A DNA stretch of 24,511 nt, taken from the IMG/VR virus record IMGVR_UViG_3300035698_004027, positions 1 through 24,511 of that record; one strand, 5' to 3'. The notes beneath the pieces are model-generated. The model made no database searches. It was not told the DNA's origin and saw only the letters and a program-made list of their open reading frames with translations. How positions within the stretch are numbered: position 1 is the stretch's first letter; every line of letters begins with the position of its first letter. The position numbers and the translations under genes were made by a program. Below are positions 1 through 21,264 of this stretch, piece by piece. This DNA is from a virus.

Positions 1-1289
1 CTGCTATCGCTTGAGAATAATTCTGAAGAACTAGAAGAACTACTTTCACTTGAAACAATACCAGAAACTGAGCTAGAACTAGAAGAACTAGAAGAACTAG
101 AAGAACTAGAAGAACTAGAAGAACTAGAAGAACTAGAAGAACTAGAAGAACTAGAAGAACTAGAAGAACTAGAAGAACTAGATTCACTACTATTAGAACT
201 AAATCCTACTGAACTACTTGAACTACTTGAACTACTTGAACTACTTGAACTACTTGAACTACTTGAGGAACTTGAACTAATATCTTCACCAAATTCTGTA
301 AAATAATAACAATTCAATAAATCATATGAGCTTTCAGAACTACTTGAAGATGATGTGCTAAACGCTATTGAGCTTGAGCTTGAACTTGAATTTGAATCTA
401 TTGAACTTGAACTTGAAGAGCTAACTGCAATTCCACCCCAACTCTCAGGTATCTCTTCATAATTAGTTGCACTTGAACAAAGCTTAAAACAATCGGTACC
501 ACCACCAGCGGGAGCAGGATCTATTTTCCATAACTCAGGAACTGCCGTTGCAACACTATTATTATTATAAAAACAAGCACCATAATAAATAGTAGATGTA
601 CAATTATCAAAAAGAGTAAGTGGAATATTCTCTATATTAGTATCTGTATGAAAACAAGATCTAAAATCTGTTACACCTGTAAGGTCATCAAACAATCCTT
701 CTGGAATAGCTGTTAATCCAGAACAAGATCTGAAGCAAGAACTTAAATTAGTAATAGCAGTTAACCCTTCAAATAGATTAGCGGGTATAGATGTTAAACC
801 AGAAGAATAAAAACCAGATGTTATTTTTGTGCAAGATGTAGCACCCCTAAATGTTCCTTCTGGTATAGTTGTTATATTAGAACAACCTCTAACAAAAAAC
901 TCTAAATCTTCTGCTAATGCAAGCTTACCAGTTTCATTAGGTAAAGATGTCATATTGGAACAGCCATAAAAATCAATCTTTAAGAAACCCGTATCTCCCC
1001 AAGCATCTACCGAATCAACATTTAATTTTGAACCAATATTATTAAAATGTATGGATGGACAATTACCAGCAATTTGTATTTGATAAGTTCCTGCTGTTGC
1101 ATATTCGTGAGAAGCGTCATCATCCCAAGCAGTAATATTAGAATTTGTTCCATCTCCCCAATAAACAACGCAATTAAAAGTTCCCTTATTATAAAAAGGC
1201 ATTGTGAAAGTTTCAGGCGTAGCGGTAGTAGTAATCGTCATTTTAAAACGATCTAATTCTGAACTACTAGAACTACTAGAATCAACCAT
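1..1289 (-). CDS. PKD/leucine-rich-repeat tail-tip or adhesion protein with polyserine tracts (partial, 3' end off window)
   Basis: The frame is open from ATG at 1289 to the left edge (429 codons), so the C-terminus is missing. The start follows AGGGG with 7-base spacing. Residues 4-10 are a Ser run. Residues 36-75 resemble a PKD-like beta-sandwich (YWGDGT, then HEYATAGTYQIQI). Residues 105-250 are BspA-type leucine-rich repeats of the form L-T-x-I-P-x-x-L-F with Cys-containing turns (SIPANLFEGLT, AIPEGLFDDLT). From residue 290 the chain is almost pure serine, broken by short islands including SVGFSS and, at the edge, ELFSSDS. PKD and BspA repeats are common in surface adhesins and phage tail tips. 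Its place at the distal end of the tail operon suggests a receptor-binding or decoration role, with the Ser tracts as a flexible stalk. The role is inferred; the domain calls are from visible motifs. Confidence 0.75.
   Translation of the reverse strand, partial: MVDSSSSSSSELDRFKMTITTTATPETFTMPFYNKGTFNCVVYWGDGTNSNITAWDDDASHEYATAGTYQIQIAGNCPSIHFNNIGSKLNVDSVDAWGDTGFLKIDFYGCSNMTSLPNETGKLALAEDLEFFVRGCSNITTIPEGTFRGATSCTKITSGFYSSGLTSIPANLFEGLTAITNLSSCFRSCSGLTAIPEGLFDDLTGVTDFRSCFHTDTNIENIPLTLFDNCTSTIYYGACFYNNNSVATAVPELWKIDPAPAGGGTDCFKLCSSATNYEEIPESWGGIAVSSSSSSSIDSNSSSSSSSIAFSTSSSSSSESSYDLLNCYYFTEFGEDISSSSSSSSSSSSSSSSSSSSSSSVGFSSNSSESSSSSSSSSSSSSSSSSSSSSSSSSSSSSSSSSSSSSSVSGIVSSESSSSSSSELFSSDS
76..182 (-). 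repeat. 9-bp tandem repeat encoding polyserine, about 12 copies
   Basis: On the plus strand the unit is GAACTAGAA, repeated about twelve times without error. On the coding strand it reads TCT AGT TCT, so each copy adds three serines. The perfect copies suggest recent slippage expansion, so length probably varies between relatives. Confidence 0.93.
211..264 (-). repeat. 9-bp tandem repeat encoding polyserine, six copies, different codon set
   Basis: Six perfect copies of GAACTACTT on the plus strand encode serines with AGT AGT TCA codons. Both the unit and the codons differ from the neighbouring array at 76-182, so this array expanded independently although both encode only serine. Confidence 0.92.
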
Positions 1290-1306
1290 TACTTATCCCC
1301 TTTAAA

Positions 1307-2098
1307 TTAAGCGTCTGTATTCCAGGCCCCATCACCCCAGACAGTAATAAATTTTGTTGCGGTAAGCTGGCGAATCATAAGGCTACTAGGTAATGCATAA
1401 TTTCTTACACTTACCTTTGTCCCAGCAACAGCACTATCATCTATTGTATCTCCAGCAGCACATTGCAAAGTAATCGTATACGCCAACTTAGTACTTATAA
1501 ATCCATAACCTTTACCAATATTCTCAGTAGTAGCTTTTGGTAAGTTAAATATGAAATCACAATCATTATCATGCACAAATGTATTACTTGCCTCACTTAC
1601 CAACACATCTCTAGGAGAATCAACACACTCAACAGCTATTATGTCATTACCAATCATCCACGGAAATGGAGGAAGATTTGTGTATAAAGCCCAGGAAATA
1701 ACAGTTGTCGTGTCAAGTATTGTTGCACCATCTAATGCAGGATTTCTTTTTAAGATAATCATACCATCAGATTGGACTATAGCTTCACTTGCGCCAGTAT
1801 CATATACGATTAATGATAATAGGAATTTACCATTGATAGCAGTTTTTGTAGCATCAAAATCGAAGAAAATAGTATTATCGCCTACAGTTACAACACCTTC
1901 AATCTCTACTATTTCAGATGCCTCTCTGTTTACACAATAAGTAAGTTTTGCTGTATTTTCTGCTGTAAATTCAACTGCAGTACCATCAGAATAAACATAG
2001 ATTTTTACATAAGGAGTACTACCCTCTGTCGTTTCCAAAAGCATACTCTCAGCTTGATGGTTAGTATCTATTGTTAAAGTATTTGTTATTATAGACAT
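1307..2098 (-). CDS. Baseplate/distal tail protein, BppU-N-like beta domain
   Basis: 263 residues starting after GGGAG at good spacing. The N-terminal half (about 30-120) alternates beta strands: VKIYVYSDGTAVEF, then LTYCVNR, IFFDFDA and GKFLLSLIVYD, ending in MIILKRNP. This pattern is typical of the N-terminal domain of upper baseplate proteins such as BppU, where it attaches receptor-binding parts to the tail tip. The C-terminal half (170-263) is also beta-rich, ends in VWGDGAWNTDA, and is not recognised. It lies between the tail fibre and the LRR protein, only 17 bases upstream of the latter, which supports a structural tail-tip role. The family call rests on pattern only. Confidence 0.5.
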   Translation of the reverse strand: MSIITNTLTIDTNHQAESMLLETTEGSTPYVKIYVYSDGTAVEFTAENTAKLTYCVNREASEIVEIEGVVTVGDNTIFFDFDATKTAINGKFLLSLIVYDTGASEAIVQSDGMIILKRNPALDGATILDTTTVISWALYTNLPPFPWMIGNDIIAVECVDSPRDVLVSEASNTFVHDNDCDFIFNLPKATTENIGKGYGFISTKLAYTITLQCAAGDTIDDSAVAGTKVSVRNYALPSSLMIRQLTATKFITVWGDGAWNTDA

Positions 2099-2155
2099 AT
2101 TTTCTCCCTGTTCCTTTAGTTAAGTTTACGAGAAACAAGCAATTTTGCCCAATAA

Positions 2156-2368
2156 TTAACAAGTAATAGTTGCTTCAGTTGCTTTTTCGTGTAAAACTTT
2201 AATCTTATCTCTTAATTTACTGAATATCTGAGCTTCTTTACTATTTAATTTTATGTTTATTTCTCCAACACCATTAAACATAATAGCCCACTCATCAGCT
2301 GTAAAATAATTTGCTACCTTAGTCAACACTTCATTTGCTTCTACTACTTCTACTACTTCTTCACTCAT
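2156..2368 (-). CDS. Small acidic protein of unknown function
   Basis: 70 residues, ATG preceded by GGAGAG at 5-base spacing. The N-terminus is strongly acidic (SEEVVEVVEANEV). The rest looks helical, with FTADEWAIMFNGV followed by an amphipathic stretch ending in LHEKATEATITC. There is no signal peptide or membrane segment. It sits between the fibre gene and the BppU-like gene, so it may be a fibre chaperone or a small structural part, but nothing in the sequence proves this. Confidence 0.6.
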   Translation of the reverse strand: MSEEVVEVVEANEVLTKVANYFTADEWAIMFNGVGEINIKLNSKEAQIFSKLRDKIKVLHEKATEATITC

Positions 2369-2384
2369 TTTATCTCTCCATTTT

Positions 2385-2413
2385 GTTTATCATACGTTTA
2401 TCATACGTTTATC
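2385..2413. repeat. 11-bp direct repeat (2.6 copies) across the fibre gene stop codon
   Basis: GTTTATCATAC occurs at 2385 and 2396, with a third partial copy at 2407. On the coding strand the fibre stop codon (TGA, 2403-2401) lies within the repeat. The extra copies fall downstream of the stop and so do not change the protein. Confidence 0.85.
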
Positions 2414-4545
2414 AATCCATGTGTTCTTAGTTTTGCCAACAAATCGTTTAACTGAGTTGTAACATCGGTAACATCAGTAACAAGCTTATCTATCTCAGTT
2501 CTTGCAACACCATCTGAATCAGCACCACCTGCACCAACAGCCGATGCCGTTACTGCAGCATCTGCAATAGCTACAGCTTGAGCACCCACTACCTGAGTTC
2601 CATTACTCTTAAAAGATGAACCAACTGAGTTAACATATGTAGTTGCTTCAACATAACTGCCTGCCGATACATATGTAGTAGCATCAACATAAGTTCCAGC
2701 ATTAACACTTGTTCCTGCTGTTATACTTGTTCCTGCATCAATTAAAGCAGATGCCCAAATACTTCCAGTTACATCTAGTGAAGCACCAACCCAAGCCCCA
2801 CCAGTAACCTTTAATGCGCCAGTAGAACCAGCTTTTGTTGCAGCAATTGTATTTTCAACAAGGAATTTTTGAAGGGCAGCAACAGTCCAATCACCAGTAT
2901 TACCTTTTAATATTTGTCCAGATAAACTTATTACTTCATTATCAGTAGCACTACCAATTGAACTACCCCAATTATGAAGGTATGTATCATCTGTTCCACC
3001 TGCTTCTCCGCTATCTGCATCTCCGTTCATCCAATATGCGCCATGGTCATTTTTATAATTAATACCAGATGGATTCCCTTCCTTAATATCTGACAAAAGC
3101 CTATGAGTGTTCTTAGGGTCATCTGTTATACAATCCCATACATCATCGCAATCAACAATGTCTAAACAACTTCTTACCCAATCGCAATCTAAGCCTCCAC
3201 TAGTTTCAAGCCAATCACCAATATCATTAGCATCACAATATTTTAATACTCTATCACCAGCACCATCTACATTTCTAAATAATATCATATCAGTTGCAAG
3301 CAAAGGAGTACTTACATCAGTATGAAACTCAATTAACTGTAGATAATTATTACCAGCCTGTACTTCTATTGACCATTGAGCTGTACCATTTGTATTAGAA
3401 TCTATTGTTGACCAGAGTAATTCACCCTGCATCTGACCACCAGCATCTGCAATATCTGAAGAAAAGTAAGGTACAGAATAACTACTTGCTACTGTACTTG
3501 TTGCACCCTTTAAACCAATAACATTAAACGGATTACCAGGGCTTGAATAATTATCAACATTAGCATCTTCCCATATCTCTAATGTTGAGTGGGTGGAAGG
3601 ATTTTGAGGCTTGTAATGCGAATCAATCCCAGCCCAATCTATAAAACCTTCTGGGCCAACCGTAGTCCAATTATCAGTAAAGCTGTCAAAATACGGAATA
3701 CTCTTTGCCTTATAACCCGAACACCTGTCAACATTATATATCTGAAGTTCACCATAATGTTGATTTGTTCCCGTTTCCATAGGGTCTAAAACTGTATTAT
3801 ATTCCAAAGTATATCTTTTATTGGGTTTTGTTAAAATATTTTGATTATCAGCATCTGTAATAAACCCAGAGTCCTTTATATCAATATTTACTCTCTGCTT
3901 TATTTTGCTAATCATCCACCCACTAGCAGTTTCTACATTTTCTTGTAATTGAATGATTCCAATAATTTCTCTCGTTTTAACAAAAATAGTTGAATCGGCT
4001 GCTGGATGAGTACCTACATAATCAGGATTTTTAGCACCAGCTTCTTCAGCATCTGTATTTATATAAAGATTTAATTTCCCTGGAATTATAGCTGCATTAA
4101 ATGACCAACCACCAGTTGCACCAAGATCCTCATCTAATTCTACATAAACATAAATATCAGTATTTTTTTCTATAATTATTGTAGGATCTCCACCCTCTAT
4201 TATTTCATCTAAGGTTATTAATAATTTATCTTCATTGTCTGGGTCAAGATGCCCTAAACCACCATCATATAGTTTAACAGCAATTGTATTTCTTACCCAA
4301 CTACCTATAAAAACAGACAAAGTATTACCATCATATTCTTGCATTCTAAAAGGGAAATCTACAATTATAGTATTCCTAGGTAATGTTGAATTTAATACAC
4401 CATCGTTTGTATGATAATCTACTGAAGAAGGGTCTATATTGGTTTTATCATACTTGTTAGCAACCTCAACTAATTTGTTGTAGTCATCAACTGGTATACT
4501 CCTCTGACCCACCTCAGCTTCATTTACATTTCCTTGGTCTGACAT
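2401..4545 (-). CDS. Tail fibre-like protein with repetitive beta stem and C-terminal coiled coil
   Basis: 714 residues, start after AAGGAG. Residues 1-230 form a mixed beta domain that probably attaches to the tail. A middle region contains a Cys/Trp/Asp-rich segment (YCDANDIGDW, then CDWVRSCLDIVDCDDVWDC) that could bind metal or form disulfides. Near residues 580-660 are degenerate six- to seven-residue repeats rich in Gly, Ala, Thr and Val (AGTSITAGTSVNAGTYVDA and similar), as in beta-helical fibre stems. The last 35 residues form a heptad-like coil (EIDKLVTDVTDVTTQLNDLLAKL), a plausible trimerisation end. The call as a fibre combines these features with position after the tape measure. 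No enzymatic motif is evident. Confidence 0.65.
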   Translation of the reverse strand: MSDQGNVNEAEVGQRSIPVDDYNKLVEVANKYDKTNIDPSSVDYHTNDGVLNSTLPRNTIIVDFPFRMQEYDGNTLSVFIGSWVRNTIAVKLYDGGLGHLDPDNEDKLLITLDEIIEGGDPTIIIEKNTDIYVYVELDEDLGATGGWSFNAAIIPGKLNLYINTDAEEAGAKNPDYVGTHPAADSTIFVKTREIIGIIQLQENVETASGWMISKIKQRVNIDIKDSGFITDADNQNILTKPNKRYTLEYNTVLDPMETGTNQHYGELQIYNVDRCSGYKAKSIPYFDSFTDNWTTVGPEGFIDWAGIDSHYKPQNPSTHSTLEIWEDANVDNYSSPGNPFNVIGLKGATSTVASSYSVPYFSSDIADAGGQMQGELLWSTIDSNTNGTAQWSIEVQAGNNYLQLIEFHTDVSTPLLATDMILFRNVDGAGDRVLKYCDANDIGDWLETSGGLDCDWVRSCLDIVDCDDVWDCITDDPKNTHRLLSDIKEGNPSGINYKNDHGAYWMNGDADSGEAGGTDDTYLHNWGSSIGSATDNEVISLSGQILKGNTGDWTVAALQKFLVENTIAATKAGSTGALKVTGGAWVGASLDVTGSIWASALIDAGTSITAGTSVNAGTYVDATTYVSAGSYVEATTYVNSVGSSFKSNGTQVVGAQAVAIADAAVTASAVGAGGADSDGVARTEIDKLVTDVTDVTTQLNDLLAKLRTHGLINV

Positions 4546-9488: not shown

Positions 9489-10378
9489 TAAATACTTATC
9501 CTCGCATACAGGCTAAGGTCCTTCCAATGCCTATCTATAACAGAAGTAATTTTATGACGACTATAACTATAATCACCTATCTTTTCTGACTGTTGATTAC
9601 CATCTTCATTCTTGTAATCCATAATTTCTTTGACAATAGTGTTCACAACAAGAGTCAGCCCTTCAGGTACATTTCCAGCAGTTGTTAATGTTCCACCAGA
9701 ATCATCTGATACGGGAAATTCGTATCCCCCAGTATACCAACAGAATATATCACCATAAAAATAACCATCACATAAACGTTCTATAGTACAATCAGAATCA
9801 TGTGCAATTCTTACATCACCACCCAAATAAGGAGTAGTTAAATGAACTTGCTCATCTACAGCCCAACCAGAATCTAATGGGCGAATCAATTGAGTTAGTG
9901 AATTACCTCTATCAGATAACACTTCAACAGTCCAACCAGCTGTTAAATCCATAGCAGTTACCAAATCAGTTACATTTGTATAAGTAGCATATAAAAATTC
10001 AGTTTCAAGTTCTACCGCATCTGTGCCAATTTCAGTTAAAGTAACTCCTGTAGCATTACTCGTAACAGTAGCTAATGGATTACCAGTATTCTTAATTGTC
10101 AATACATCTACACAATTCCCTGATACCAATTTAATAGCAGTAATAGGATAATTATCAAGTACAATATATTCAGTTCCAGAACCTTCAACCCATTCTTTAT
10201 ATGTAGCAGACTGAAAATTCCTACCACACTTCTTGCCTATTAAATCACAAGTTTCATCTATGATATATCTTAGAACTTCTGTATCACTAATGTTACTGGA
10301 AACATCATCATTAACATCATTTATGAATCTATTATAAAGATATAGATTTGTTAGATTCGATACACCTTTTGCAGCCAT
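9488..10378 (-). CDS. Head-tail connector protein (gp6/gp15-like) with central insertion
   Basis: 296 residues; ATG preceded by AAGGGGG and sharing one base with the stop of the homing endonuclease. The N-terminal helices (TEVLRYIIDETCDLIGKKCGRNF), the strand TEYIVLDNYPITAI and the C-terminal helix (GLTLVVNTIVKEIMDYKN) followed by EKIGDYSYSRHKITS are the pattern of HK97 gp6 / SPP1 gp15 adaptors, which form a ring under the portal. Family members are often 100-200 residues. Here roughly residues 90-170, a beta-rich and Thr-rich stretch, look inserted between strand and helix, possibly an extra domain facing outward. Confidence 0.75.
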   Translation of the reverse strand: MAAKGVSNLTNLYLYNRFINDVNDDVSSNISDTEVLRYIIDETCDLIGKKCGRNFQSATYKEWVEGSGTEYIVLDNYPITAIKLVSGNCVDVLTIKNTGNPLATVTSNATGVTLTEIGTDAVELETEFLYATYTNVTDLVTAMDLTAGWTVEVLSDRGNSLTQLIRPLDSGWAVDEQVHLTTPYLGGDVRIAHDSDCTIERLCDGYFYGDIFCWYTGGYEFPVSDDSGGTLTTAGNVPEGLTLVVNTIVKEIMDYKNEDGNQQSEKIGDYSYSRHKITSVIDRHWKDLSLYARISI

Positions 10379-11109
10379 TACGATACCCCCTTAAGCTTTC
10401 TTTTAGCCCAGTTCTTTTTCATTTGTTCAGACCTCCTTTTGCTTTGCTCTTGAGTATACTTATAGCCTTTAGCATTCTTTTTACCGCACATTGCTATGGA
10501 ATGCTTTTCTTTTTCTTCTTCAGACTGATTACGACCTTTTGTCCATGTGTTCTTACCTTTAGCAGATATACTCATTTTCTTTTTTGTTTCTTCAGTGTGC
10601 TTTCTACCAAGGGGCGATATTTTCTTTTTTGTTTCTTCAGTATGCTTTTTACCCATACGCCCTTTACTAATTTTATCTCTAGTTTCTTGCGATTGCGACT
10701 TCCCCATATTTGATTTACTAATTCTTTTTCTAGTTTCTTTAGAACAAACTCTTCCCATACCTGCTTTGCTAATTTTAATTTTAGTTTCTTCAGAAAGAGT
10801 TTTTCTTGTACCAGACTCCATATTATAGCCGTTATTTATGCTATCATAATATTCCATCCACGTATCTTCTCTATTAAGTAGAACGTCATCTATACACTTT
10901 TCAACAGCTTTAAACTCAAAACTATCAGCACCGTATCTATTCCAAGCCCTTTGCAGGTGTTTATTATGATGCTTGTTCAGCCTAAGTTCAGAGCGATGAC
11001 AGGTGAACCTATTTCTAAAACCAACTGTAGACCCAGTACATCCAATATAAACCTTATTGTTCACAAGGTTAAATATTCCATATATACCAGATTCTGTGCC
11101 TTTAGCCAT
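10378..11109 (-). CDS. GIY-YIG homing endonuclease with NUMOD3-like repeats
   Basis: 243 residues, RBS GGAGGT just before ATG. The catalytic module is at 1-100: GIY at 8-10, YIG at 21-23, Arg32/Arg34 (FRNRF), the metal-binding Glu81 in NREDTWMEYY, and Asn96 in GYN. Residues 105-185 contain about five copies of a 17-residue DNA-binding motif of the NUMOD3 type (S/T-x-E-T-K-x-K-I-S ... G-K), visible in the DNA as repeats of about 51 bases. Such enzymes cut an allele lacking the gene and are copied in by repair. It is free-standing, lying between the capsid paralogue and the connector gene, and overlaps the connector start. Active residues all look intact. Confidence 0.93.
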   Translation of the reverse strand: MAKGTESGIYGIFNLVNNKVYIGCTGSTVGFRNRFTCHRSELRLNKHHNKHLQRAWNRYGADSFEFKAVEKCIDDVLLNREDTWMEYYDSINNGYNMESGTRKTLSEETKIKISKAGMGRVCSKETRKRISKSNMGKSQSQETRDKISKGRMGKKHTEETKKKISPLGRKHTEETKKKMSISAKGKNTWTKGRNQSEEEKEKHSIAMCGKKNAKGYKYTQEQSKRRSEQMKKNWAKRKLKGVS

Positions 11110-11155: not shown

Positions 11156-12298
11156 TTACGTACTTGAGCTGTCAGAACTGTCAGAACTAAATTTCTCAGA
11201 ACTACTTGAACTAGACGAAGAAGAACTAGAAGAAGAAGAACTAGATGAACTAGAAGAACTAGAAGAACTAGACGAAGAACTAAATCCTACAGATGAACTA
11301 CTTGAACTCGATGTAGACTCACTAGATTGTTCCATATCTGCCTTCATAACAAATGCTGATACAACAGAACCATCTTGAGTAGTCATTGTAGAATTCCATC
11401 CACTCTTACCATTAATCCTATGTACCCAACGATAACATAATTCATCCTGGAGAAATTTTAACGACTCATTTACATCAGAAGTAATTTCTTTCTCAGCAAT
11501 ACAATACTGGCTCATATCAGCAAGAAGTATATCATCCACATTCATTACATCAGTTATAACAATAGGTAATCCAAGAATTCTACCTAGTGGAGCACCTTCT
11601 GAAGGATTAGGATTAAATACATTCGGAGCAGTAGTTAAGTCAAGATCAATAATCTCTTCATAACCACCTTTACTCATATACCATTTACCATTAGGATTGC
11701 CATAGTAAGAATGATACATATCTTCTAACTCAGCCAATGTAATAGGGTCAGTGTTTGCAACAAATATAGTTGAAGCATCTGCGGCTATACCATTAATAGT
11801 ATTAGAAGGATAATTGCTACCATATATAATAGCTCTATCAATCTGCCACATCATACTCTCAGTTACAGCACCAGAAATATATGTCTGAAGTGCAACAGCA
11901 TCCATAAACAACTCTTCAGTTATATATACGATTCCTACAAGTTTGTTTAAACTAAGGTCAATCTGTGCAAACTGTCCTTTTGAAGGTGTTTTAGTAACTC
12001 CCTCACCAACCCAATACGTTAATACTCCACCCTTGATACCAGATGTGTTACGTGTAGGTTCAGCAGCAATAGATATCTTTAAACCATTAGCATTTTCGCC
12101 AACCTTAAAAATTTTACATTTAGAATATAGTGAACCTTCTGCGAAATTTGGACTGAAGATTTCTGCTGTTACTGGATGGTCAACTAGGTAACCGCCCTCA
12201 ATGTCAGTTTTTTCATTCTGCCCCGTTGACTTAACAATAGCGCCTGTTCTCAATGACTGCAACTTTTTACCCATTTCTTCTAGTTTCTCGATTTTCAT
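11156..12298 (-). CDS. Second HK97-fold capsid protein (paralogue) with C-terminal polyserine tail
   Basis: 380 residues from ATG at 12298, chosen because AAGGAG is six bases upstream; the ATG two codons earlier abuts that site. The core aligns by eye with the major capsid protein encoded just upstream: KSTGQNE, GG-Y/F-LV-x-H, NGLKI, G-E-G-x-TKT, Q-I-D-x-SL-x-K, Y-x-T-x-EL, and the final QDGS/PSGD-x-VS-x-FV. It lacks the roughly 100-residue charged N-terminal region of the other protein, having only 22 residues before KSTGQNE. The last 56 residues are mostly serine, with SVGFSS near the start and EKFSSDSSDSS at the end. It could be a vertex, minor or decorating capsid subunit. The role is inferred. 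Confidence 0.85.
   Translation of the reverse strand: MKIEKLEEMGKKLQSLRTGAIVKSTGQNEKTDIEGGYLVDHPVTAEIFSPNFAEGSLYSKCKIFKVGENANGLKISIAAEPTRNTSGIKGGVLTYWVGEGVTKTPSKGQFAQIDLSLNKLVGIVYITEELFMDAVALQTYISGAVTESMMWQIDRAIIYGSNYPSNTINGIAADASTIFVANTDPITLAELEDMYHSYYGNPNGKWYMSKGGYEEIIDLDLTTAPNVFNPNPSEGAPLGRILGLPIVITDVMNVDDILLADMSQYCIAEKEITSDVNESLKFLQDELCYRWVHRINGKSGWNSTMTTQDGSVVSAFVMKADMEQSSESTSSSSSSSVGFSSSSSSSSSSSSSSSSSSSSSSSSSSSSEKFSSDSSDSSST
11159..11326 (-). repeat. Polyserine-coding low-complexity tract
   Basis: The final 56 codons of the capsid paralogue are almost all TCT, TCA, AGT or TCG serine codons arranged in imperfect 9-base repeats of GAACTAGAA type. The string GAACTAAATCCTAC also occurs in the polyserine region of the LRR gene near 197, suggesting shared origin. 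Confidence 0.85.
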
Positions 12299-12357
12299 TA
12301 CCATCTCCTTAGTTTTTGCCCTTGTTTAAGGCGTGATTAATAATACACTCCAACTAA

Positions 12358-12490: not shown

Positions 12491-13750
12491 TCAGTCTCTG
12501 GTAACAAATGGTGACACCAGGTCCCCACTTGGAAGAGTAATTGCACTTGCAATTTTTGGTGACCCGCCTAAGCGTCCAACAAAGCGAAATGCGGTCTCAT
12601 CTTCGAGAAAGGCAATGTGTATACTGGTATCTTTTTTGATTCCACCCTTCTTGATAACAAGATACTGGCTAAGGTCAAGGAACATGATGGATGTATCATC
12701 AGCTGCGGCCCCTGCTTGCTCTATAACGTTAATTGGACGACCAAAAAGTGTTCCATAGGCGGAAACTTCATAACTAGGCTGTACCAATTTAACACCACTT
12801 GTAGACTCAAGCTGACCAATTGCTACGAATTGAGCCAAACTCATGTACCACTCAGCACGATTAATAGACTGAGGAGCCATTGAAGCATACATACCCATCA
12901 ACTCAGCAGCAGTTGGATTGTCACCAGCAACTGTGTACTGAATAGTAGCTGCATGATTTTCAATCTCTATCATATCTGTGTTAGTTGTGCCATGAAGAAT
13001 GTCATCATCCGCTACCCATGCAAAAGCCGCCGAAACGTCCTTAGTGAGCATACTTTCAAGTGCAACCTTATCCTGAAGCAATTCATCCGTACAATAGACA
13101 ACCGCCGCCATCTTACCAAGAGAAATGTCAATCTGTGAGAAAGCCTGTGAGAAAGCAGTCTTAGTTGAACCTTCACCTGGACTATAAACACGAACACCAC
13201 CAAACAATGTAGTAGCAGAACGAGTAGACTCATTAACCTGATTGATTTTCAAACCATTAGAGTTAGGTCCTATTTCAACTTGGTCGCACTTAGGAAGTAA
13301 GATTGACTGCTGAGCAGCTAAACGATAGATTTCATTACTAAGGTTATGCTGGACCAAAAAACCGCCATCGGCCCCAGTAGTTTCATTCTGGCCCGTCGAT
13401 TTATACAATCTTTCATCAACATTTCCACGAGAAGCCTTTACAACAGCACCAAGGAACTCGCCAGAATCTTTCCAAAGAGGAGCATCTTCAACAACTACAA
13501 CAGCAGTTTTTGTTTCAACTTCTTTTTCAGTTTCTTTCATAGCTTCAGTAACTGCAGACTTAATTTCTTTAGCCATATCAGCTTTAATATCTTCAGCCTT
13601 AACTTCCTTTACAACACCATCACTAGCTTCTGCTCTTTCAGCCTTGATAAGCTCTTCAGCAACATCATCAGACACTTCAAGAATAGAACCAGAATCATAG
13701 ACGTTATCATCAACATCCATATATTTCTTAATCAACTTTATAAACTTCAT
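12491..13750 (-). CDS. Major capsid protein, HK97 fold, with N-terminal scaffolding-like region
   Basis: 419 residues with AAAGGAG before ATG. Residues 1-90 are charged and helical (SDDVAEELIKAERAEA, KADMAKEIKSAVTEAMKETEKEVETK), matching the HK97 delta domain that acts as scaffold and is removed by the prohead protease encoded just upstream. From about 118 the HK97 family pattern begins: KSTGQNETTGADGGFLVQ, NSNGLKINQ, GGVRVYSPGEGSTKT, QIDISLGKMAAVVYCTDELL, a middle domain, and the closing FLEDETAFRFVGRLGG with PSGDLVSPFVTRD. The gene has its own 150-base leader and a strong terminator, as expected for the most abundant virion protein. Confidence 0.93.
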   Translation of the reverse strand: MKFIKLIKKYMDVDDNVYDSGSILEVSDDVAEELIKAERAEASDGVVKEVKAEDIKADMAKEIKSAVTEAMKETEKEVETKTAVVVVEDAPLWKDSGEFLGAVVKASRGNVDERLYKSTGQNETTGADGGFLVQHNLSNEIYRLAAQQSILLPKCDQVEIGPNSNGLKINQVNESTRSATTLFGGVRVYSPGEGSTKTAFSQAFSQIDISLGKMAAVVYCTDELLQDKVALESMLTKDVSAAFAWVADDDILHGTTNTDMIEIENHAATIQYTVAGDNPTAAELMGMYASMAPQSINRAEWYMSLAQFVAIGQLESTSGVKLVQPSYEVSAYGTLFGRPINVIEQAGAAADDTSIMFLDLSQYLVIKKGGIKKDTSIHIAFLEDETAFRFVGRLGGSPKIASAITLPSGDLVSPFVTRD

Positions 13751-14919: not shown

Positions 14920-16350
14920 TTATTGCTCCTCATTCTGTTCAGGTTCTTCCTGCCCAGCTATATATCCAACTTCTTTACCACCATTAACTCTAGGAATGTC
15001 ATATTCAGAACCTAAAGCAGTCATACCCAATTTCAATCTAGCCTCATTAACTGTTACAATCCCAGCGTTTACATATCCAACATTCTCTTCCAATAATATC
15101 TTCCTATCCTGAGGTATTGGAGAATCATATGCCAAGAATAACCTTCCACTAGGATCATACATCTTAACTAATGTTTCATTCAACTTCTCAGCTATACGAG
15201 TAATTCTTGGTAATATTGTTGTTTTGGCATATACACGCTCAGCTATCTCACTAGTTGCTTTCTTAGTATCAGAACTATCCAAAAGCGAATAAGGTACACC
15301 AAATGCAGCAGCTATCTCTTTTAGACTCCATACACGACCATTTAAGTATTCCATGTCCTTAGGCTTGAATCCCAATGTTTCCAATGAGAAATCTTCATCC
15401 ATTACTTTAATACGACCATCTTTATTAGGTCCACTAAATGCATTCCTCCACATTCTCTCAGTTTTCTTTATCTCACTAGAATCAAGCTTTCCACCCTTAT
15501 AATTAACTACAAAATCAGGACGACCCATATTAGCTAACCTAGAATTCTCAGAAGCATCCATTGCCCTCATTCTATTAATAGCACCAATTACAGACTGAGC
15601 CGCTCCCATGCCATAGTACATTGATTCTGGATTAGGTGTTTTAAAATGAATAATCTCATCTTTATTAAACTTAATTAACTCATTAGATGCATTCTTCTGA
15701 CCATATACATAACCTTTAATAAAATTACGCTTTGCAGGAATGATTTTCATATATTGCCCCTGAAGTACCCATATCTCTTCAGGAACGCCTAATGAATCCT
15801 TACGTACCCACCAGTATCCATCCCCAATCATATCCAAATACATCGAGGTAAGCTCAAATGACTCATAGTTGTTATTATAAGCATTCATGTTCTGCAATAA
15901 ATCAATTAATGGATGGTCAACAACCTCTACTACATTATCAGCTCTCTTTAAACGAGCTAATGACTTATTCTCTTTCAATTCCTCAAACTTTAACTTACTT
16001 ACTTCCTTAGTTTGACGTAAAAACTTATTATTAGCACCATTCTCAACAGTAGCATATAAATGTAAATCTTGTGATGCAACAGAACTAGCATTCAACGTAG
16101 CACAACTAAATATCCAAGATTGTAAATGCTTTATAACATTTAATGGACTAATCGCCGTATTCGTAGTCGGACAAGATAAATTAAAAAATGAATCCCTTCC
16201 AATAGACTGAGAAGTACTTGTAGCCCCAACTATATCTTTCATCTTCGTTTCCTTAACAGTATCATACCTTTCCTTCTGATATGCTTTAAGTTTCTCTTTG
16301 TTATCTTGATAATACTTCTTTCTATACGCTTTTTCTTTTTTACTGCTCAT
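14920..16350 (-). CDS. Portal protein (HK97 type) with basic N-terminal extension
   Basis: 476 residues. AAGGAG seven bases before the ATG supports the full-length start. The body from about residue 60 is a typical HK97-family portal: VIKHLQSWIFSCATLNASSVA, the YLDMIGDGYWWVRKD region, DEIIHFKTPNPESMYYGMGAAQ, ENSRLANMGRPDFVVNY, LEIAAAFGVPYSLL-like 'SLKEIAAAFGVPYSLLD', and VNEARLKLGMTAL near the end. It forms the dodecameric DNA gate. Residues 1-40 (KKEKAYRKKYYQDNKEKLKA and onward) are very basic and resemble the repeats next to HNH nuclease domains rather than anything usual in portals. Confidence 0.92.
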   Translation of the reverse strand: MSSKKEKAYRKKYYQDNKEKLKAYQKERYDTVKETKMKDIVGATSTSQSIGRDSFFNLSCPTTNTAISPLNVIKHLQSWIFSCATLNASSVASQDLHLYATVENGANNKFLRQTKEVSKLKFEELKENKSLARLKRADNVVEVVDHPLIDLLQNMNAYNNNYESFELTSMYLDMIGDGYWWVRKDSLGVPEEIWVLQGQYMKIIPAKRNFIKGYVYGQKNASNELIKFNKDEIIHFKTPNPESMYYGMGAAQSVIGAINRMRAMDASENSRLANMGRPDFVVNYKGGKLDSSEIKKTERMWRNAFSGPNKDGRIKVMDEDFSLETLGFKPKDMEYLNGRVWSLKEIAAAFGVPYSLLDSSDTKKATSEIAERVYAKTTILPRITRIAEKLNETLVKMYDPSGRLFLAYDSPIPQDRKILLEENVGYVNAGIVTVNEARLKLGMTALGSEYDIPRVNGGKEVGYIAGQEEPEQNEEQ

Positions 16351-16362
16351 AATATCTCCTTA

Positions 16363-18081
16363 TTAAAAATCATCCCCATTCATCCAGTCATCCTCTAAAG
16401 ATTGATATGCTTCTAATCTCTTCTGCTCTTTCTGCTCTTCAGTTTCTTTAACTTCGCTAGGATAATTGTCACCAGTAGAAGGATGTATGAATATAGATGT
16501 TAATTCATTAAATGCACCAGACCAACCATCAACCTGGTCATCATGTTTTGTAGACGCATCACCAAACATATGCAATTCGCTTAAAAAAGGGTCATTCCAT
16601 TCAGCTAATTGTAACTTAACATTACCAATCTCAGCCTGTACAGCACTAGGTCTAGCTCGTATCTCTTTATTCTTACCACCTGTAGGAACTCCCTTGCAAT
16701 TGAAGCCAGCTAGTAATGTTTGTAGGCGATATGAGTCACTTTTACCTGACGCCCCACCTTCTTGTTCCCATCGTACCATAAACTCAATCCCTAAATCATC
16801 TGCACTTATCTTATCCATTTGACACGTCTGTAAGAATAACTTCTCTAACTCAGCTGGATTCTCTCTTACCCTCACTACATCAATGATAAAATATTTACCA
16901 TTATATTTACGCACTTTTATTCCAACAGTCCAATCTGGGTCTTTATTCTTTGCACTAGGTTTCGTACAAGCAAAATCCCAAAACCTACATTCCTTACCCT
17001 TTTGTGGTATTTCTTTAGGGTCTACTATCTCAAACCATGAACGACGGTAGAAAAGGCCCGCCGTTGCCATAATGTTCCAGTTGCCATCCAAAAGTCTAGC
17101 TCTTTCCAGTGGTACCATTGCTTCTAAGTTAGATAAATAACTTGTGTCAATTTCCAATAATTTTTGATTATCTGTTAGTTGAGCACTTATAAATGTAACA
17201 GATTTAATTCCTGCTATAGCTAATTTCTTATGCTTATATATTTTTGCTGTAAATTCTACCTTTAATGCCTCTAGTTTCTTTAATCTGCCCTTACTTGTTA
17301 ATTTTTTCTTTTTATTGAGGTATTCTTGGCGTAAGTTGTTATAAGTAAGTGCAAAAGCTTCATTCTTCTTTAATACCTCATTTTTAGTACTACCCCATAT
17401 AAATTTTCCCTCTACCCTCAACATATATCTTATTACACCAGATCTCTCTTTAATAGCTAATCCAGTATCAGGATTTATCCACCAATCAAGGAAATCACGT
17501 AACCAACTGTCAGCTTTAGGGTTACAGGTGCCCCTTATATAGGGTTTTATGCCACATACCGATCTATTTCTGGAAAGCATATAAAAAACCTGTGTTTCTG
17601 TAAATTTCTGTATTTCATCAAAGAAAATAGCGCATGCCTGCAACCCATCAAATCCAGACTTATCTTTTTCACCCTCCATATAACCAAACTTAATTTCTGC
17701 TCCACTCTCAAATTTCCATTTAAGCCTAGATTCAACAGGCCTACAATTTAAATTACCATACATTTTAACAGATTCATCCCATAGAGCACCAGGCATTCTT
17801 ATCTGTTGACTAGTATTACGAAACATAATACAGTTATAACCGCCATTTTCTGTATGCATTAGTGGTTCTGCGAGTATTGACCACGATTTCCCACTTCCAG
17901 CTGCTCCCCCATATATACATATATCTGCATTAGTTTTAAGGAATTCTGTTTGTGGCCCTTCTTGTGGCGCTATTATAAGAGTTTCTTCTTTAGGTTCTTC
18001 TGGTTCTTTAGATTCTTTAGGTTCTTTAGGTTCTTCTGGCTCAGTAATTGGCTTAGTTTCTTCATCCATCATCATCTCCAT
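16363..18081 (-). CDS. terL: Terminase large subunit
   Basis: 572 residues, ATG preceded by GGAG at 5-base spacing. This is the packaging motor: an ATPase that pumps DNA and a nuclease that cuts it. Walker A is GGAAGSGKS (58-66). Walker B is AIFFDE (151-156), ending in the catalytic Glu. The RNase H-like nuclease has Asp369 (FWDFA), Asp401 (FIIDVV) and HDDQVD (513-518). KSVTFISAQLTDN and LLDGNW are typical TerL motifs. The first 33 residues are repetitive Glu/Pro/Lys. Residues about 240-290 are a Lys-rich helical stretch that looks longer than usual. The TAGCCA array lies between it and the small subunit gene. Confidence 0.96.
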   Translation of the reverse strand: MEMMMDEETKPITEPEEPKEPKESKEPEEPKEETLIIAPQEGPQTEFLKTNADICIYGGAAGSGKSWSILAEPLMHTENGGYNCIMFRNTSQQIRMPGALWDESVKMYGNLNCRPVESRLKWKFESGAEIKFGYMEGEKDKSGFDGLQACAIFFDEIQKFTETQVFYMLSRNRSVCGIKPYIRGTCNPKADSWLRDFLDWWINPDTGLAIKERSGVIRYMLRVEGKFIWGSTKNEVLKKNEAFALTYNNLRQEYLNKKKKLTSKGRLKKLEALKVEFTAKIYKHKKLAIAGIKSVTFISAQLTDNQKLLEIDTSYLSNLEAMVPLERARLLDGNWNIMATAGLFYRRSWFEIVDPKEIPQKGKECRFWDFACTKPSAKNKDPDWTVGIKVRKYNGKYFIIDVVRVRENPAELEKLFLQTCQMDKISADDLGIEFMVRWEQEGGASGKSDSYRLQTLLAGFNCKGVPTGGKNKEIRARPSAVQAEIGNVKLQLAEWNDPFLSELHMFGDASTKHDDQVDGWSGAFNELTSIFIHPSTGDNYPSEVKETEEQKEQKRLEAYQSLEDDWMNGDDF

Positions 18082-18308
18082 TTGATCTCCATTTATAAAT
18101 ATTTACTTAATTTTTTAATAATTTTCTCAGTACTGTTACAAATTACTATAGCCTTCCTAATCAGCGCTTTTTCTGACACGTCTACCCTCACTTTGGCTAA
18201 TTTGAGAAACTATGGCTAACACTTGGCTAATTAATATATAAAAACTTATTAAACATATAATTATAAATACTTCGCTCCAATCTCCGCCAATAAAATAAAT
18301 CATATTAC

Positions 18309-18338
18309 TTAGCCATAAAACTTAGCTATGTAAGCCAT
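18309..18338 (-). other. Possible nine-codon leader ORF with strong ribosome binding site
   Basis: AGGAGGT lies four bases before ATG at 18338, followed by MAYIAKFYG and TAA. It is the only strong ribosome binding site in the non-coding gap. It may be a leader peptide for terL, a remnant, or chance, since ATGGCT occurs throughout the array. Confidence 0.25.
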
Positions 18339-18420
18339 GTGTACCTCCTATTCAAGTACTTAGCCATGTGTAGCCATAGAGATATAAATTAATTACTTAG
18401 CCACACATTAGCCACACATT

Positions 18421-18492
18421 AGCCATAGTACTATACATACTTAGCCACAGTAACTTAGCCATAGTACTATACATACTTAGCCACAGTAACTT
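18421..18492. repeat. Perfect 36-bp tandem duplication inside the array
   Basis: Two identical 36-base units start at 18421 and 18457, each holding two TAGCCA motifs, followed by a diverged partial third copy. The identity suggests recent duplication. Confidence 0.92.
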
Positions 18493-18548
18493 AGCCACAG
18501 TACTAAGCCATATGTTAGCCCTATATTATTAACATATGTACATAGCTT

Positions 18549-18584
18549 CCATACATTGATCCATACATTCATCCATACATTCAT
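18549..18584. repeat. 12-bp tandem repeat, three copies
   Basis: CCATACATTSAT occurs three times in a row, the first copy with G and the others with C at the variable base. It lacks TAGCCA but shares CCATA with it. Confidence 0.85.
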
Positions 18585-18673
18585 ATCTTCTCCCTATTAT
18601 ATCTCTATGGCTATGTTGGGCTATGTTGGGCTAATGTCTGTACCATTGTAAGCCATACATTAGCCACATATAT

Positions 18674-18727
18674 CGCCATATTATTTTCACTCTATTCTCA
18701 TTAACGCCATATTATTTTCACTCTATT
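18674..18727. repeat. 23-bp direct repeat carrying the GTGAAAAT box
   Basis: Two perfect copies start at 18674 and 18705 (period 31). On the minus strand each contains AGAGTGAAAATAATAT, matching the box found upstream of both capsid genes. Confidence 0.85.
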
Positions 18728-18767
18728 TACTATGGTTACTATGGTTACTATGGCTACACATGGCTAG

Positions 18768-18835
18768 GTACTTAATTAACATATATGATACTTACTCTAA
18801 TTATCCATAGTGTACTTAATTAACATATATGATAC
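18768..18835. repeat. 24-bp direct repeat containing TTAATTAA
   Basis: Two perfect 24-base copies (18768-18791 and 18812-18835) begin GTACTTAATTAACATATATG. They are very AT-rich, and a melting or origin function is conceivable. Confidence 0.85.
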
Positions 18836-18859
18836 ACTTAGCCACAGTAACTTAATTGA

Positions 18860-18892
18860 CATACTACTTACATACTACTTACATACTACTTA
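18860..18892. repeat. 11-bp tandem repeat, three copies
   Basis: CATACTACTTA is repeated three times without error, and the last copy runs into a TTAGCCA motif at 18890. Confidence 0.9.
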
Positions 18893-18955
18893 GCCATATT
18901 CATTAGCCACAGAGATAGCCATAGTTACTTAGCCATGTGTAGCCATGTGTAGCCA

Positions 18956-19483
18956 TTACTTAGCCATAGGGACATCGAGGTTAGCCATAAAAGCCTCTAA
19001 TGATTCTAACTCACTACCTGTTGCCATATCTTCATTAACGTCATATGGCTCATCCTCGTCCTTTTTAGGCATATTTATCTCAACATACTTAACTGTAGAA
19101 GTGTTATTCATATCAATCTTAGTTATATCGTCCCCAGATTGATGATGTAGTTCCTTTAATGCATGTAGTCTAATTGATTTGGTTTCTAATGGATCTCTTA
19201 CTATGGCTGATAATATGGCTAATCTCTCACCTAATTGACATATACCACTACTTTGCTCTTCTATTAAATCTGATATACGATCTGCTATCTCTGGTCTGGC
19301 TTTAAGTTGGCAATAGTAACTGGCTGAGTACTTATATCCTGCTCCCTCTAAACATTTATGAGGATTACCATTCGTTTCTACTACTAATCGGGCAAATTTT
19401 TCATGCCTTACTGATTTTAATGGCTCAGTGGGTGGCTTAATTGGCTCAGTTGGCTCAGTTGGATTAATTGGCTCATCTGTCAT
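18956..19483 (-). CDS. terS: Probable terminase small subunit
   Basis: 175 residues; AAAGGGAG before ATG. It should recognise phage DNA and regulate the large subunit. After a Pro/Glu/Thr-rich leader (residues 4-22, EPINPTEPTEPIKPPTEP), residues 26-76 match the helix-turn-helix of Terminase_2-type small subunits: RHEKFARLVVETNGN, CLEGAGYKYSASYYCQLKARPEIADRISDLIEE. The middle is helical (oligomerisation), and the C-terminus is acidic with a final helix, as in TerL-binding tails. The last codons (ATGGCTAAG TAA) are themselves a copy of the array motif. Identification rests on HTH pattern and position before terL. Confidence 0.75.
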   Translation of the reverse strand: MTDEPINPTEPTEPIKPPTEPLKSVRHEKFARLVVETNGNPHKCLEGAGYKYSASYYCQLKARPEIADRISDLIEEQSSGICQLGERLAILSAIVRDPLETKSIRLHALKELHHQSGDDITKIDMNNTSTVKYVEINMPKKDEDEPYDVNEDMATGSELESLEAFMANLDVPMAK

Positions 19484-19505
19484 AATATCATCTCCCTTTA
19501 AGTAT

Positions 19506-19535
19506 ATTATAAAAGAAATGAGGTTGTTTAGCCAA
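19506..19535 (-). promoter_or_regulatory. Probable sigma70-type promoter for terS
   Basis: On the minus strand TTGGCT (19535-19530), an 18-base spacer and a perfect TATAAT (19511-19506) lie just before the terS RBS. The -35 sits inside a TTGGCTAA motif like those in the array, so a protein binding that motif could control this promoter. Confidence 0.6.
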
Positions 19536-19692
19536 GTTCAGTAAGGTTTTGCTGCAAATACTATACTTAAAAAACATCTAAATAAATATAAGTAGTTCTA
19601 CCGCAACTATATACATTAAATAAGGCATATAGAGGGATATATGGCTAAGTGGTAGTTTTGGCATATAAACTAAACTATTGGGCTATTATATC

Positions 19693-20391
19693 TTACTTAT
19701 GACCTGTTGCTTTTAATATTCTAGCTTCCATCTCTGCACTCTGTTTGGTATGACGCTCTTTTTCTTTTCTTCTTCGCTCAATAGTTGCTAGTCTGCTTTT
19801 TTCTCTCTGATCTTGTTCTCTGGCAAATGTGTAAAATGAGCGATGTTCTTCCTTACGTTGTTGATTTTTAGTATATTTATAATCTTTACTAATACATTCT
19901 TTATTTGCATAGAATTTAGCATTTTCCATATTAGTTTGTTTAATAACGTATGCTACAGCCGCTTTTATTTGTTTCTTTGTTTTCTTTTCCTTTTGGCCTC
20001 TGTATATAATATTGCGTACTTTGCAGTCAACCCAATTTTTACTTTGTATAACTACCCATTTATCATAGTATTTATTAATATATTCAGCATCTCTGGCTTT
20101 TCTTGAGGCTATATGTTTTGCTTTTTGTGTGTTTATTTGTTTTTCTGTTCTATAGTGTTTATCGAGATATTCATCAGCTGTATTTGTTTTTGCCCTATTT
20201 AGAAATTCGTATGTATATTGGTTTTTCCAGAATGGTATTTTTTCTTTTATTTGTTCATTAGATAGTCCATTTATATTAGCTATTCGTATTTCTCTATCTA
20301 TAGCACTATTTACATATGTTTCTTTATTAATGGGCTGAGCATTGGCTATTGTTGTTATTGCGATTAATGTTAGTATTGCGATCAGTTTCAT
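19693..20391 (-). CDS. Secreted basic helical protein of unknown function
   Basis: 232 residues, ATG preceded by AAGGA. A clear Sec signal peptide covers residues 1-18 (MKLIAILTLIAITTIANA, cleavage probably before Gln19). The mature protein is very rich in Lys, Arg, Glu and Tyr with long helices; examples are NQQRKEEHRSFYTFAREQDQ and IERRRKEKERHTKQ. Two Cys (WVDCKVRN and NKECISKD) could form a disulfide. It has its own promoter and long flanking gaps, unlike its operon neighbours, so it looks like an independently expressed insert. Lysogenic conversion, superinfection exclusion or an effect on the cell envelope are possible. I do not recognise a family. Confidence 0.7.
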   Translation of the reverse strand: MKLIAILTLIAITTIANAQPINKETYVNSAIDREIRIANINGLSNEQIKEKIPFWKNQYTYEFLNRAKTNTADEYLDKHYRTEKQINTQKAKHIASRKARDAEYINKYYDKWVVIQSKNWVDCKVRNIIYRGQKEKKTKKQIKAAVAYVIKQTNMENAKFYANKECISKDYKYTKNQQRKEEHRSFYTFAREQDQREKSRLATIERRRKEKERHTKQSAEMEARILKATGHK

Positions 20392-20429
20392 AATGTTCCT
20401 TTTTTAGTTAGTGTTTCATTTATATAACC

Positions 20430-20457
20430 ACTATATAGAAATTCTGTTAAAAGTCAA
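20430..20457 (-). promoter_or_regulatory. Sigma70-type promoter for the secreted-protein gene
   Basis: On the minus strand TTGACT (20457-20452), a 16-base spacer and TATAGT (20435-20430) each match consensus at five of six positions. It lies about 40 bases before the ATG. A second TTGACT at 20497-20492 has a poorer -10. Confidence 0.7.
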
Positions 20458-20559
20458 GTTATTTCAGTCTAAATATAACTTTTATGCATTTAGTCAACAA
20501 TCTGAGGCATAAGGTTATTAATTTCATACTTAGAATTATTACTGGCATATAAGATATAG

Positions 20560-21264
20560 TCATTTGAGTATAACTAATCCTATACCTGGTGAACTAGCAT
20601 CTACTGACAAATCTATTGTTTTGTGTGTATTTGATAATTCATTAAACAATTTACTAGAGCCGTATCTTCCATCTTTTATATCGTGAAAAGCTATATATCT
20701 TGAATCTTTGAATTGATTAAACGTATTAAGCATAGAATCATATCTTTGGTTAGTATCTATAAAAACTAAATCAAAGGGTTCTGTTTGATAATCATCTGAG
20801 TGCATATGTAGGAATTCACATGTAGGATTAAGTTTATGATATATATTGAATGTTTTGCATGCTTGGATATCTAGTTCTAGTTCTCTCAGTATTCTTCTTT
20901 TGGTATTAGTAATAGTATTTATGTTTGTTTCATTGAGGTCTAAGCGTGTATCTAGTCCTATTGATTTGATATAATTGGGATTTATTGACCTAAAGTAAGC
21001 GTCTAGTATAATAAAGCTACCGCCAAGATATGTACCTACTTCGCAATATTTGGTTACATTTAGTTTATTCATGTACTTCATTAAGTTTAATAATTCATGT
21101 GGGTGTTGGCTTACAGACACATCGGAATATCTTTTATCTCTATATCCTTTAGCTCCAAAACGTACTGCACTAGGTAATGTATTTTCTAATTCATCAATAT
21201 CATTTAATTCAAAGAATTCATTTAGTTTATTAGCTGGTGTTCTTGGTATTCTTGGTGTTTTCAT
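20560..21264 (-). CDS. Class I SAM-dependent methyltransferase (Methyltransf_24-like)
   Basis: 234 residues, AAAGGAG before ATG, overlapping the upstream gene by four bases (ATGA). SAM-binding motif I is EVGTYLGGS (75-83), followed by the acidic residue after strand 2 in IGLDTR (102-107), the FDLVFIDTNQRYD strand (164-176) and IAFHDI (191-196). FIDxxxxYD and FHD-I are characteristic of Methyltransf_24 and related O-methyltransferases acting on sugars or small molecules. It ends the accessory cassette. The substrate cannot be read from the sequence. Modification of a glycan on host or virion is a guess. Confidence 0.8.
   Translation of the reverse strand: MKTPRIPRTPANKLNEFFELNDIDELENTLPSAVRFGAKGYRDKRYSDVSVSQHPHELLNLMKYMNKLNVTKYCEVGTYLGGSFIILDAYFRSINPNYIKSIGLDTRLDLNETNINTITNTKRRILRELELDIQACKTFNIYHKLNPTCEFLHMHSDDYQTEPFDLVFIDTNQRYDSMLNTFNQFKDSRYIAFHDIKDGRYGSSKLFNELSNTHKTIDLSVDASSPGIGLVILK

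Follow-up and report, generated by a model that had tools for sequence, protein, structure and literature searches.

The pac site of phage P1 holds seven TGATCA/G hexamers in 161 bp within pacA (PMC10028697). The box repeats of SPP1 and SF6 differ from one another, and the DNA-binding domain of SF6 TerS has been described as having little specificity for pac repeats (PMC4737164). Among lambda-like phages, cosQ, cosN and I2 are strongly conserved while cosB varies in structure and specificity (PMC4669245). HK97 TerS requires one 15-bp site, which spans positions +15 to +29 relative to the cut (PMC11331095), and terminal HNH genes accompany cos packaging in Streptococcus thermophilus phages (PMC5601072). 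How small terminases select their own DNA is partly understood. According to a 2022 review, neither current model explains cos-site recognition and the contacts of pac-type TerS are weak and sequence-independent (PMC9611059); one cos case has since been explained by the HK97 complex (PMC11331095).

The window analysed here is a linear viral record of 24,511 bp from an uncultured tailed virus, in which the recognised structural and packaging genes all lie on the minus strand. No end repeats were found on the contig. An array of the exact hexamer TAGCCA occupies the 874-bp gap between terS and terL and enters the last codons of terS. A conserved element, termed A, stands just outside the bounds that the initial annotation had given to this array (Table 1). 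No such array was recognised for this family in the available text of open-access papers on packaging sites with repeats near terminase genes.

In comparison with P1 pac as described in the cited text, where PacA and PacB act, the locus likewise combines hexamer repeats at the gene for the small terminase with an adjacent cut site, here a candidate one, but its 26 copies are spread over 794 bp and lie mostly outside terS, the words change between relatives, and TAGCCA is not a GATC methylation word. Direct repeats at terS and a G1P-type helix-turn-helix TerS, homologous to that of SF6 by profile match, are shared with SPP1 and SF6. Whereas the SPP1 pac site takes in promoters and the start of terS, the window array lies at the 3' end of terS; it is also far larger than the SPP1 and SF6 sites and uses one exact word. 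The arrangement of a constant cut region, again a candidate in the present case, beside a variable recognition region resembles cos of the lambda-like phages as the cited account presents it, but 26 hexamers in 794 bp contrast with the three R sites and IHF site of the 120-bp lambda cosB. Likeness to HK97 extends to a capsid of the HK97-like family (PF05065) in the window and to an HNH-like gene in one relative (L057), recognised by eye and without a Pfam match; HK97 cos, unlike the window, has no array. The terL of Methanoculleus virus Blf4 is related (39%), and the available text on that virus contains no mapped genome ends (PMC8540584).

Table 1. Positions of the array, the conserved element and the terminase genes in the window.
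Feature	Position	Strand	Basis
terL, large terminase	16363-18081	-	Pfam and PHROGs
Block B position, 32 bp after GCGC of A	18110-18135	-	Rank 17 of 1200 in window; weak there, clear in relatives
Conserved element A (GTGTCAGAAAAAGCGCTGATTAGGAAG) at terL-proximal array edge; candidate for cutting or loading	18153-18179	-	Leave-one-out rank 1 of 48976 in window
Word array, 20 TAGCCA on plus and 6 on minus strand (TGGCTA 20 times on late-gene strand)	18194-18987		Exact search
Two perfect 36-bp units, two TAGCCA apiece	18419-18490	+	Repeat analysis
terS, small terminase, N-terminal helix-turn-helix type	18956-19483	-	Profile match to solved small terminases
Outlying TAGCCA copies: 19216-19221 in terS; 19529-19534 and 19642-19647 upstream of terS	19216-19647		Exact search

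Window terS alone gave no match to Pfam or PHROGs at a threshold of 0.001 and a weak PHROG match to small terminases (E 0.032), and a search with this protein alone recovered no relative. A TerS profile built from the window and five relatives matched the small terminases of Pam5 (E 5.7e-9) and, over the N-terminal part, SF6 (E 0.0012) among solved structures. The AlphaFold2 model of TerS was poor (pLDDT 64.8). When this model was searched with Foldseek, the small terminases of NV1, E217 and Sf6 ranked at the top, all of them weak matches (best E 0.04, none below 0.001). Identity to the window was 33-40% for TerS (L004, L005, L057) and 53-56% for TerL (L004, L005, L006).

Elsewhere in the window, two neighbouring HK97-type capsid genes (11156-12304 and 12491-13750, both minus strand) are 37% identical over 309 residues; the first has a long poly-serine tail, a feature that its counterparts in relatives share. 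A homing-endonuclease-like gene with GIY-YIG and NUMOD3 (10378-11109, minus strand) is inserted among the structural genes, and positions 1-1289, at the contig end, are coding sequence rich in poly-serine and 9-bp repeats.

The initial annotation had counted about 20 copies of TAGCCA and six inverted ones within about 800 bases, a tally borne out by exact search (Table 1). It had also placed the last codons of terS inside the array, and two words, ATGGCTAAC and ATGGCTAAG, are indeed found within the 3' coding sequence, where they encode 'MAN' and the terminal 'MAK'. The window as a whole contains 38 TAGCCA where 12.7 would be expected and none of 100 shuffles gave more than 21, and the 906-bp array region, including the terS overlap, contains 26 against a shuffle mean of 1.16 and maximum of 6. 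Repeated 8-mers in the gap numbered 283, whereas 200 dinucleotide shuffles averaged 48 and reached at most 78; no repeat excess was observed in the 209-bp gap upstream of terS. Motifs are often 10-14 bases apart, as had been stated (13 of 25 neighbour intervals), but the suggestion of one motif per helical turn was rejected, since R at 10.5 bp for the 20 plus-strand copies was 0.07, below the random mean of 0.19 (95% point 0.39). The reported repeat periods of 11, 12, 31, 36 and 44 were all recovered, together with one of 10, but TAGCCA is absent from the 12-, 31- and 44-bp repeats, and those of 12 and 31 bp, which had been called perfect, are approximately 96% identical. Long inverted copies are also present in the array. 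No ORF of at least 60 amino acids lies inside the gap, where two plus-strand ORFs merely overlap the ends, and a long coding repeat was rejected on this ground. An RNA gene in the gap was also discounted: Rfam returned one sub-threshold match in 16000-20600 (18.3 bits against a gathering value of 45), and a tRNA search of the window found none.

Relatives were gathered by searching the viral collection with capsid, terL and portal sequences and share this capsid (58-75% identical). Ten contigs of the family have terS-side DNA, namely the window, G001 (L059), G002 (L004), G003 (L005), G005 (L057), G006 (L058), L181, L189, L193 and L194, the label in brackets denoting the same contig; terS is not on the G006 contig, and both G006 and L194 include just part of the upstream DNA. 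Contigs devoid of terS-side DNA (G004/L006, L178, L179, L182, L183 and L188) were omitted, as was L190, which begins inside terS and has no terS-terL gap. Two of the distant-portal contigs L195-L206 were inspected (L195 and L196). The genome contig collection yielded 28 loci with a best terL segment of 45%, none of which was taken as family.

Repeated 8-mers in the noncoding terS-side DNA exceeded all 200 shuffles in eight of the ten contigs, the window included; G003 and L189 had no significant array by the same test. Control gaps from the same contigs exceeded all shuffles in two of eight cases (12022-12207 of the reverse-complemented window and 191-876 of G002). A survey of 89 hand-listed terL loci, each required to have at least 900 bp upstream and scored over up to 1.5 kb before terL, gave z above 8 in six (window, L058, G001, L057, L125 and L081), four of them from this family, and downstream controls gave such values in 0 of 83. 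The survey omitted the duplicates L060 and L061, as well as six loci whose terL match was partial or weak (L162-L164, L166-L168). Repeats as a general habit of the terL clade were rejected, the distant loci L125 and L081 resembling coding repeats by eye. At locus L067 (z 7.2), words of the form CGATCGC abound. Between the exported-looking genes that precede terS in the window and in L004, no homology was found.

The initial annotation had proposed a search for the same motif in this gap of related phages. TAGCCA arrays were absent from all relatives examined; nor do the relatives lack repeats, the outcome named there as evidence against the proposal, since they carry arrays of other words. AGGGCA occurs as 12 exact copies in G001 (shuffle mean 0.96) and 11 in its sister L193 (0.50), GGGGCA as seven in G002 (0.56), TAGGGC as seven in G006 (0.28) and TCGGGC as 14, in 14 contexts, in L181 (0.76). 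The four exact copies of GTGGCA in G005 (shuffle mean 0.22) are too few to stand after choice of the best word, L194 has four copies of AATGAGACA at 118-182, and L189 was given no word. All 14 TCGGGC of L181 fall at 428-3486 of 18,244 bp, around terS (2721-3131). The word AATGAGACA is common to L194 and L058 (three copies, 77-117); L058 additionally has arrays of TAGGGC and GAATGAGTG, so that one site can carry more than one word family. A single GGC core for all words was considered and rejected, as GGGC is the most enriched 4-mer on average across the ten regions but has a z of 0.3 in the window. Beyond the family, a three-word TAGCCA pattern occurred in 50 viral contigs, with at most 12 words per 800 bp in the fetched loci against 26 in the window, and the TACTTAGCCA pair was matched in four viral contigs, with at most five words there. 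Tandem TAGCCA arrays, mostly of period 11, were seen in other viral contigs at L040:2250-2382, L034:5671-6051 and L056:13-124.

Element A, first spotted by eye, is present in the window and seven relatives and absent beside terS in G003 and L181. Scored with a leave-one-out matrix, it ranked first in the contig in six of these eight (window, G005, L189, G001, L193 and L194), second in G006 and 38th in G002. An earlier run with fewer sequences had placed it first in the window, G005 and G006, 9th/5th in G002 and 22nd/452nd in G001. It is followed after 32-33 bp by block B, which is CCTCACACAATTTTCCCGGATTTT-like. At 32 bp, the local rank of B was 1 in L189, G001 and L193, 2 in G005 and G002 and 5 in G006; in L194 it was 336 at 32 bp and 1 at 33 bp. 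Allowing the 33-bp spacing of L194, B ranked first or second in six of eight contigs and was weak in the window and G006. The sequence TTTGCCCGATTTTC, tried as A of G001, proved to be B, with A lying 51 bp upstream. RNAalifold predicted no pair, and thus no shared RNA fold, on A/B.

Words within 1300 bp before and after A numbered 27 and 0 in the window, 7 and 1 in G005, 10 and 2 in G001, 11 and 0 in L193, 7 and 1 in G002, 7 and 0 in G006 and 4 and 0 in L194; this split towards the 5' side of A is favoured because the DNA after A is largely coding. Element A is situated between terS and terL in the window, G002 and G005, and before terS in G001, L189, L193 and L194, the arrays of G001 and L193 being upstream of terS. 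These differing positions indicate that A moves relative to terS, mostly together with the words before it. The HNH-like gene of L057 lies between A/B and terL; in G001 and G003, weak matches to HNH_2 that fell short of the curated cut-off were found some kb from terS. The terL of L194 (1164-4964, plus strand; 1266 amino acids) carries an intein-like insert immediately behind its Walker A region, with matches to LAGLIDADG_3 (1.8e-9) and to Intein_splicing (7.9e-7, below the curated cut-off).

The array might have arisen as neutral, low-complexity intergenic DNA through slippage and unequal exchange, with no protein reading the words. Tandem growth at periods 10, 11 and 36 within the array, the variation of words among relatives, the repeat-rich control gaps and the 9-bp coding repeats elsewhere in the window, in viruses that carry many coding tandem repeats, would all accord with such an origin. 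Against it, exact TAGCCA is elevated 20-fold in the 906-bp region while one-mismatch forms stand at background (13 against 13.2 in shuffles), and other frequent words of the region have far more one-mismatch than exact copies. The 26 copies, in both orientations, have 20 distinct flanking contexts, and most are therefore not simple tandem copies. Exact words were far above shuffles in six of seven contigs tested and one-mismatch counts inside the shuffle range in all seven, although L193 was at its maximum (17) and G006 high (9; mean 4.7). The words and element A were chosen after looking, the words as the most enriched, so that single P values are optimistic. In L181, eight of the 14 TCGGGC fall by position within three genes (sigma-like, terS and terL), and AGGGCA is retained in both G001 and L193 even though their array segments, unlike the blocks around them, give no blastn alignment. 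An excess of exact but not of one-mismatch words, in varied contexts, favours sequence-specific recognition over plain slippage, and neutral repeat DNA is considered unlikely.

Two further readings, both given a low probability, are control of the late genes and a replication origin. In the first, A/B would serve as a late promoter of terL or terS and the words as operators of a late regulator, which would suit the location of A 86-554 bp ahead of terL or terS, where the late genes start. L181 encodes, just upstream of terS, a protein with sigma-70 region 2 (PF04542, 4.1e-7; 1196-1975, plus strand), possibly a late sigma factor. However, a scan for promoters of the sigma-70-like type found none on the minus strand of the window gap, an operator region of 26 sites over 800 bp would be large, and in the G001-type contigs the unit of words and A/B precedes terS rather than terL; this explanation appears less probable still than neutral repeats. 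Slightly below it we place an iteron-type replication origin, in which the words would bind a phage initiator and A/B with its AT-rich flank would be the opening region. Many short sites, a conserved element and AT-rich DNA after it are equally the layout of an origin, yet a scan of neighbouring genes on these incomplete contigs gave no match to an initiator family, and the array stays at terS/terL, shifting its position relative to terS together with A.

The words and the shared short element suggest an unusually large, fast-changing packaging signal. The location at or beside terS and terL and an element conserved in eight of ten contigs are both general features of packaging sites, and the packaging site proposed in the initial annotation gains comparative support from the recurrence of exact-word arrays beside terS/terL, the conserved A at the terL-proximal edge of the window array and the resemblance of the neighbouring gene to SF6-type small terminases. 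That array and A together form a packaging-initiation site, in which fast-changing candidate TerS-recognition words stand beside a conserved cleavage-type element, is given an even chance of being correct on these comparisons of sequence. In such a site, the TGGCTA copies on the late-gene strand would be recognised by the TerS encoded next door, and would load it along a stretch of several hundred bp that flanks A on one side. TerL would make its first cut at A, with B 32-33 bp further on. Words and TerS would evolve rapidly in step from one lineage to the next, whereas the cut-type element, served by the slower-evolving TerL, would be preserved. We infer that TerS binds the words, that cutting takes place at A/B and that the two act jointly.

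Several observations count against a packaging site. The low specificity reported for the SF6 DNA-binding domain is one; G003 and L181 have no A, G003 and L189 have no significant array, A ranks 38th in G002, the window and G006 have weak versions of B, two of eight control gaps are repeat-rich, and the nearest chosen words in G002 and G006 are 689 and 370 bp from A. A more specific and rather doubtful proposal is that packaging identity resides in the local density of an exact word, in tens of copies spilling into genes and re-coded in each lineage beside a conserved cut element.

If the packaging reading is true, the multi-copy packaging sites of the cited papers would be extended from seven hexamers in 161 bp in P1 to 26 in 794 bp. 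With terS, candidate words and conserved element varying side by side in one family, these viruses offer natural swaps for testing recognition. If, more specifically, packaging identity resides in word density, the words would constitute a fast-evolving address code, which could keep the packaging of related viruses apart.
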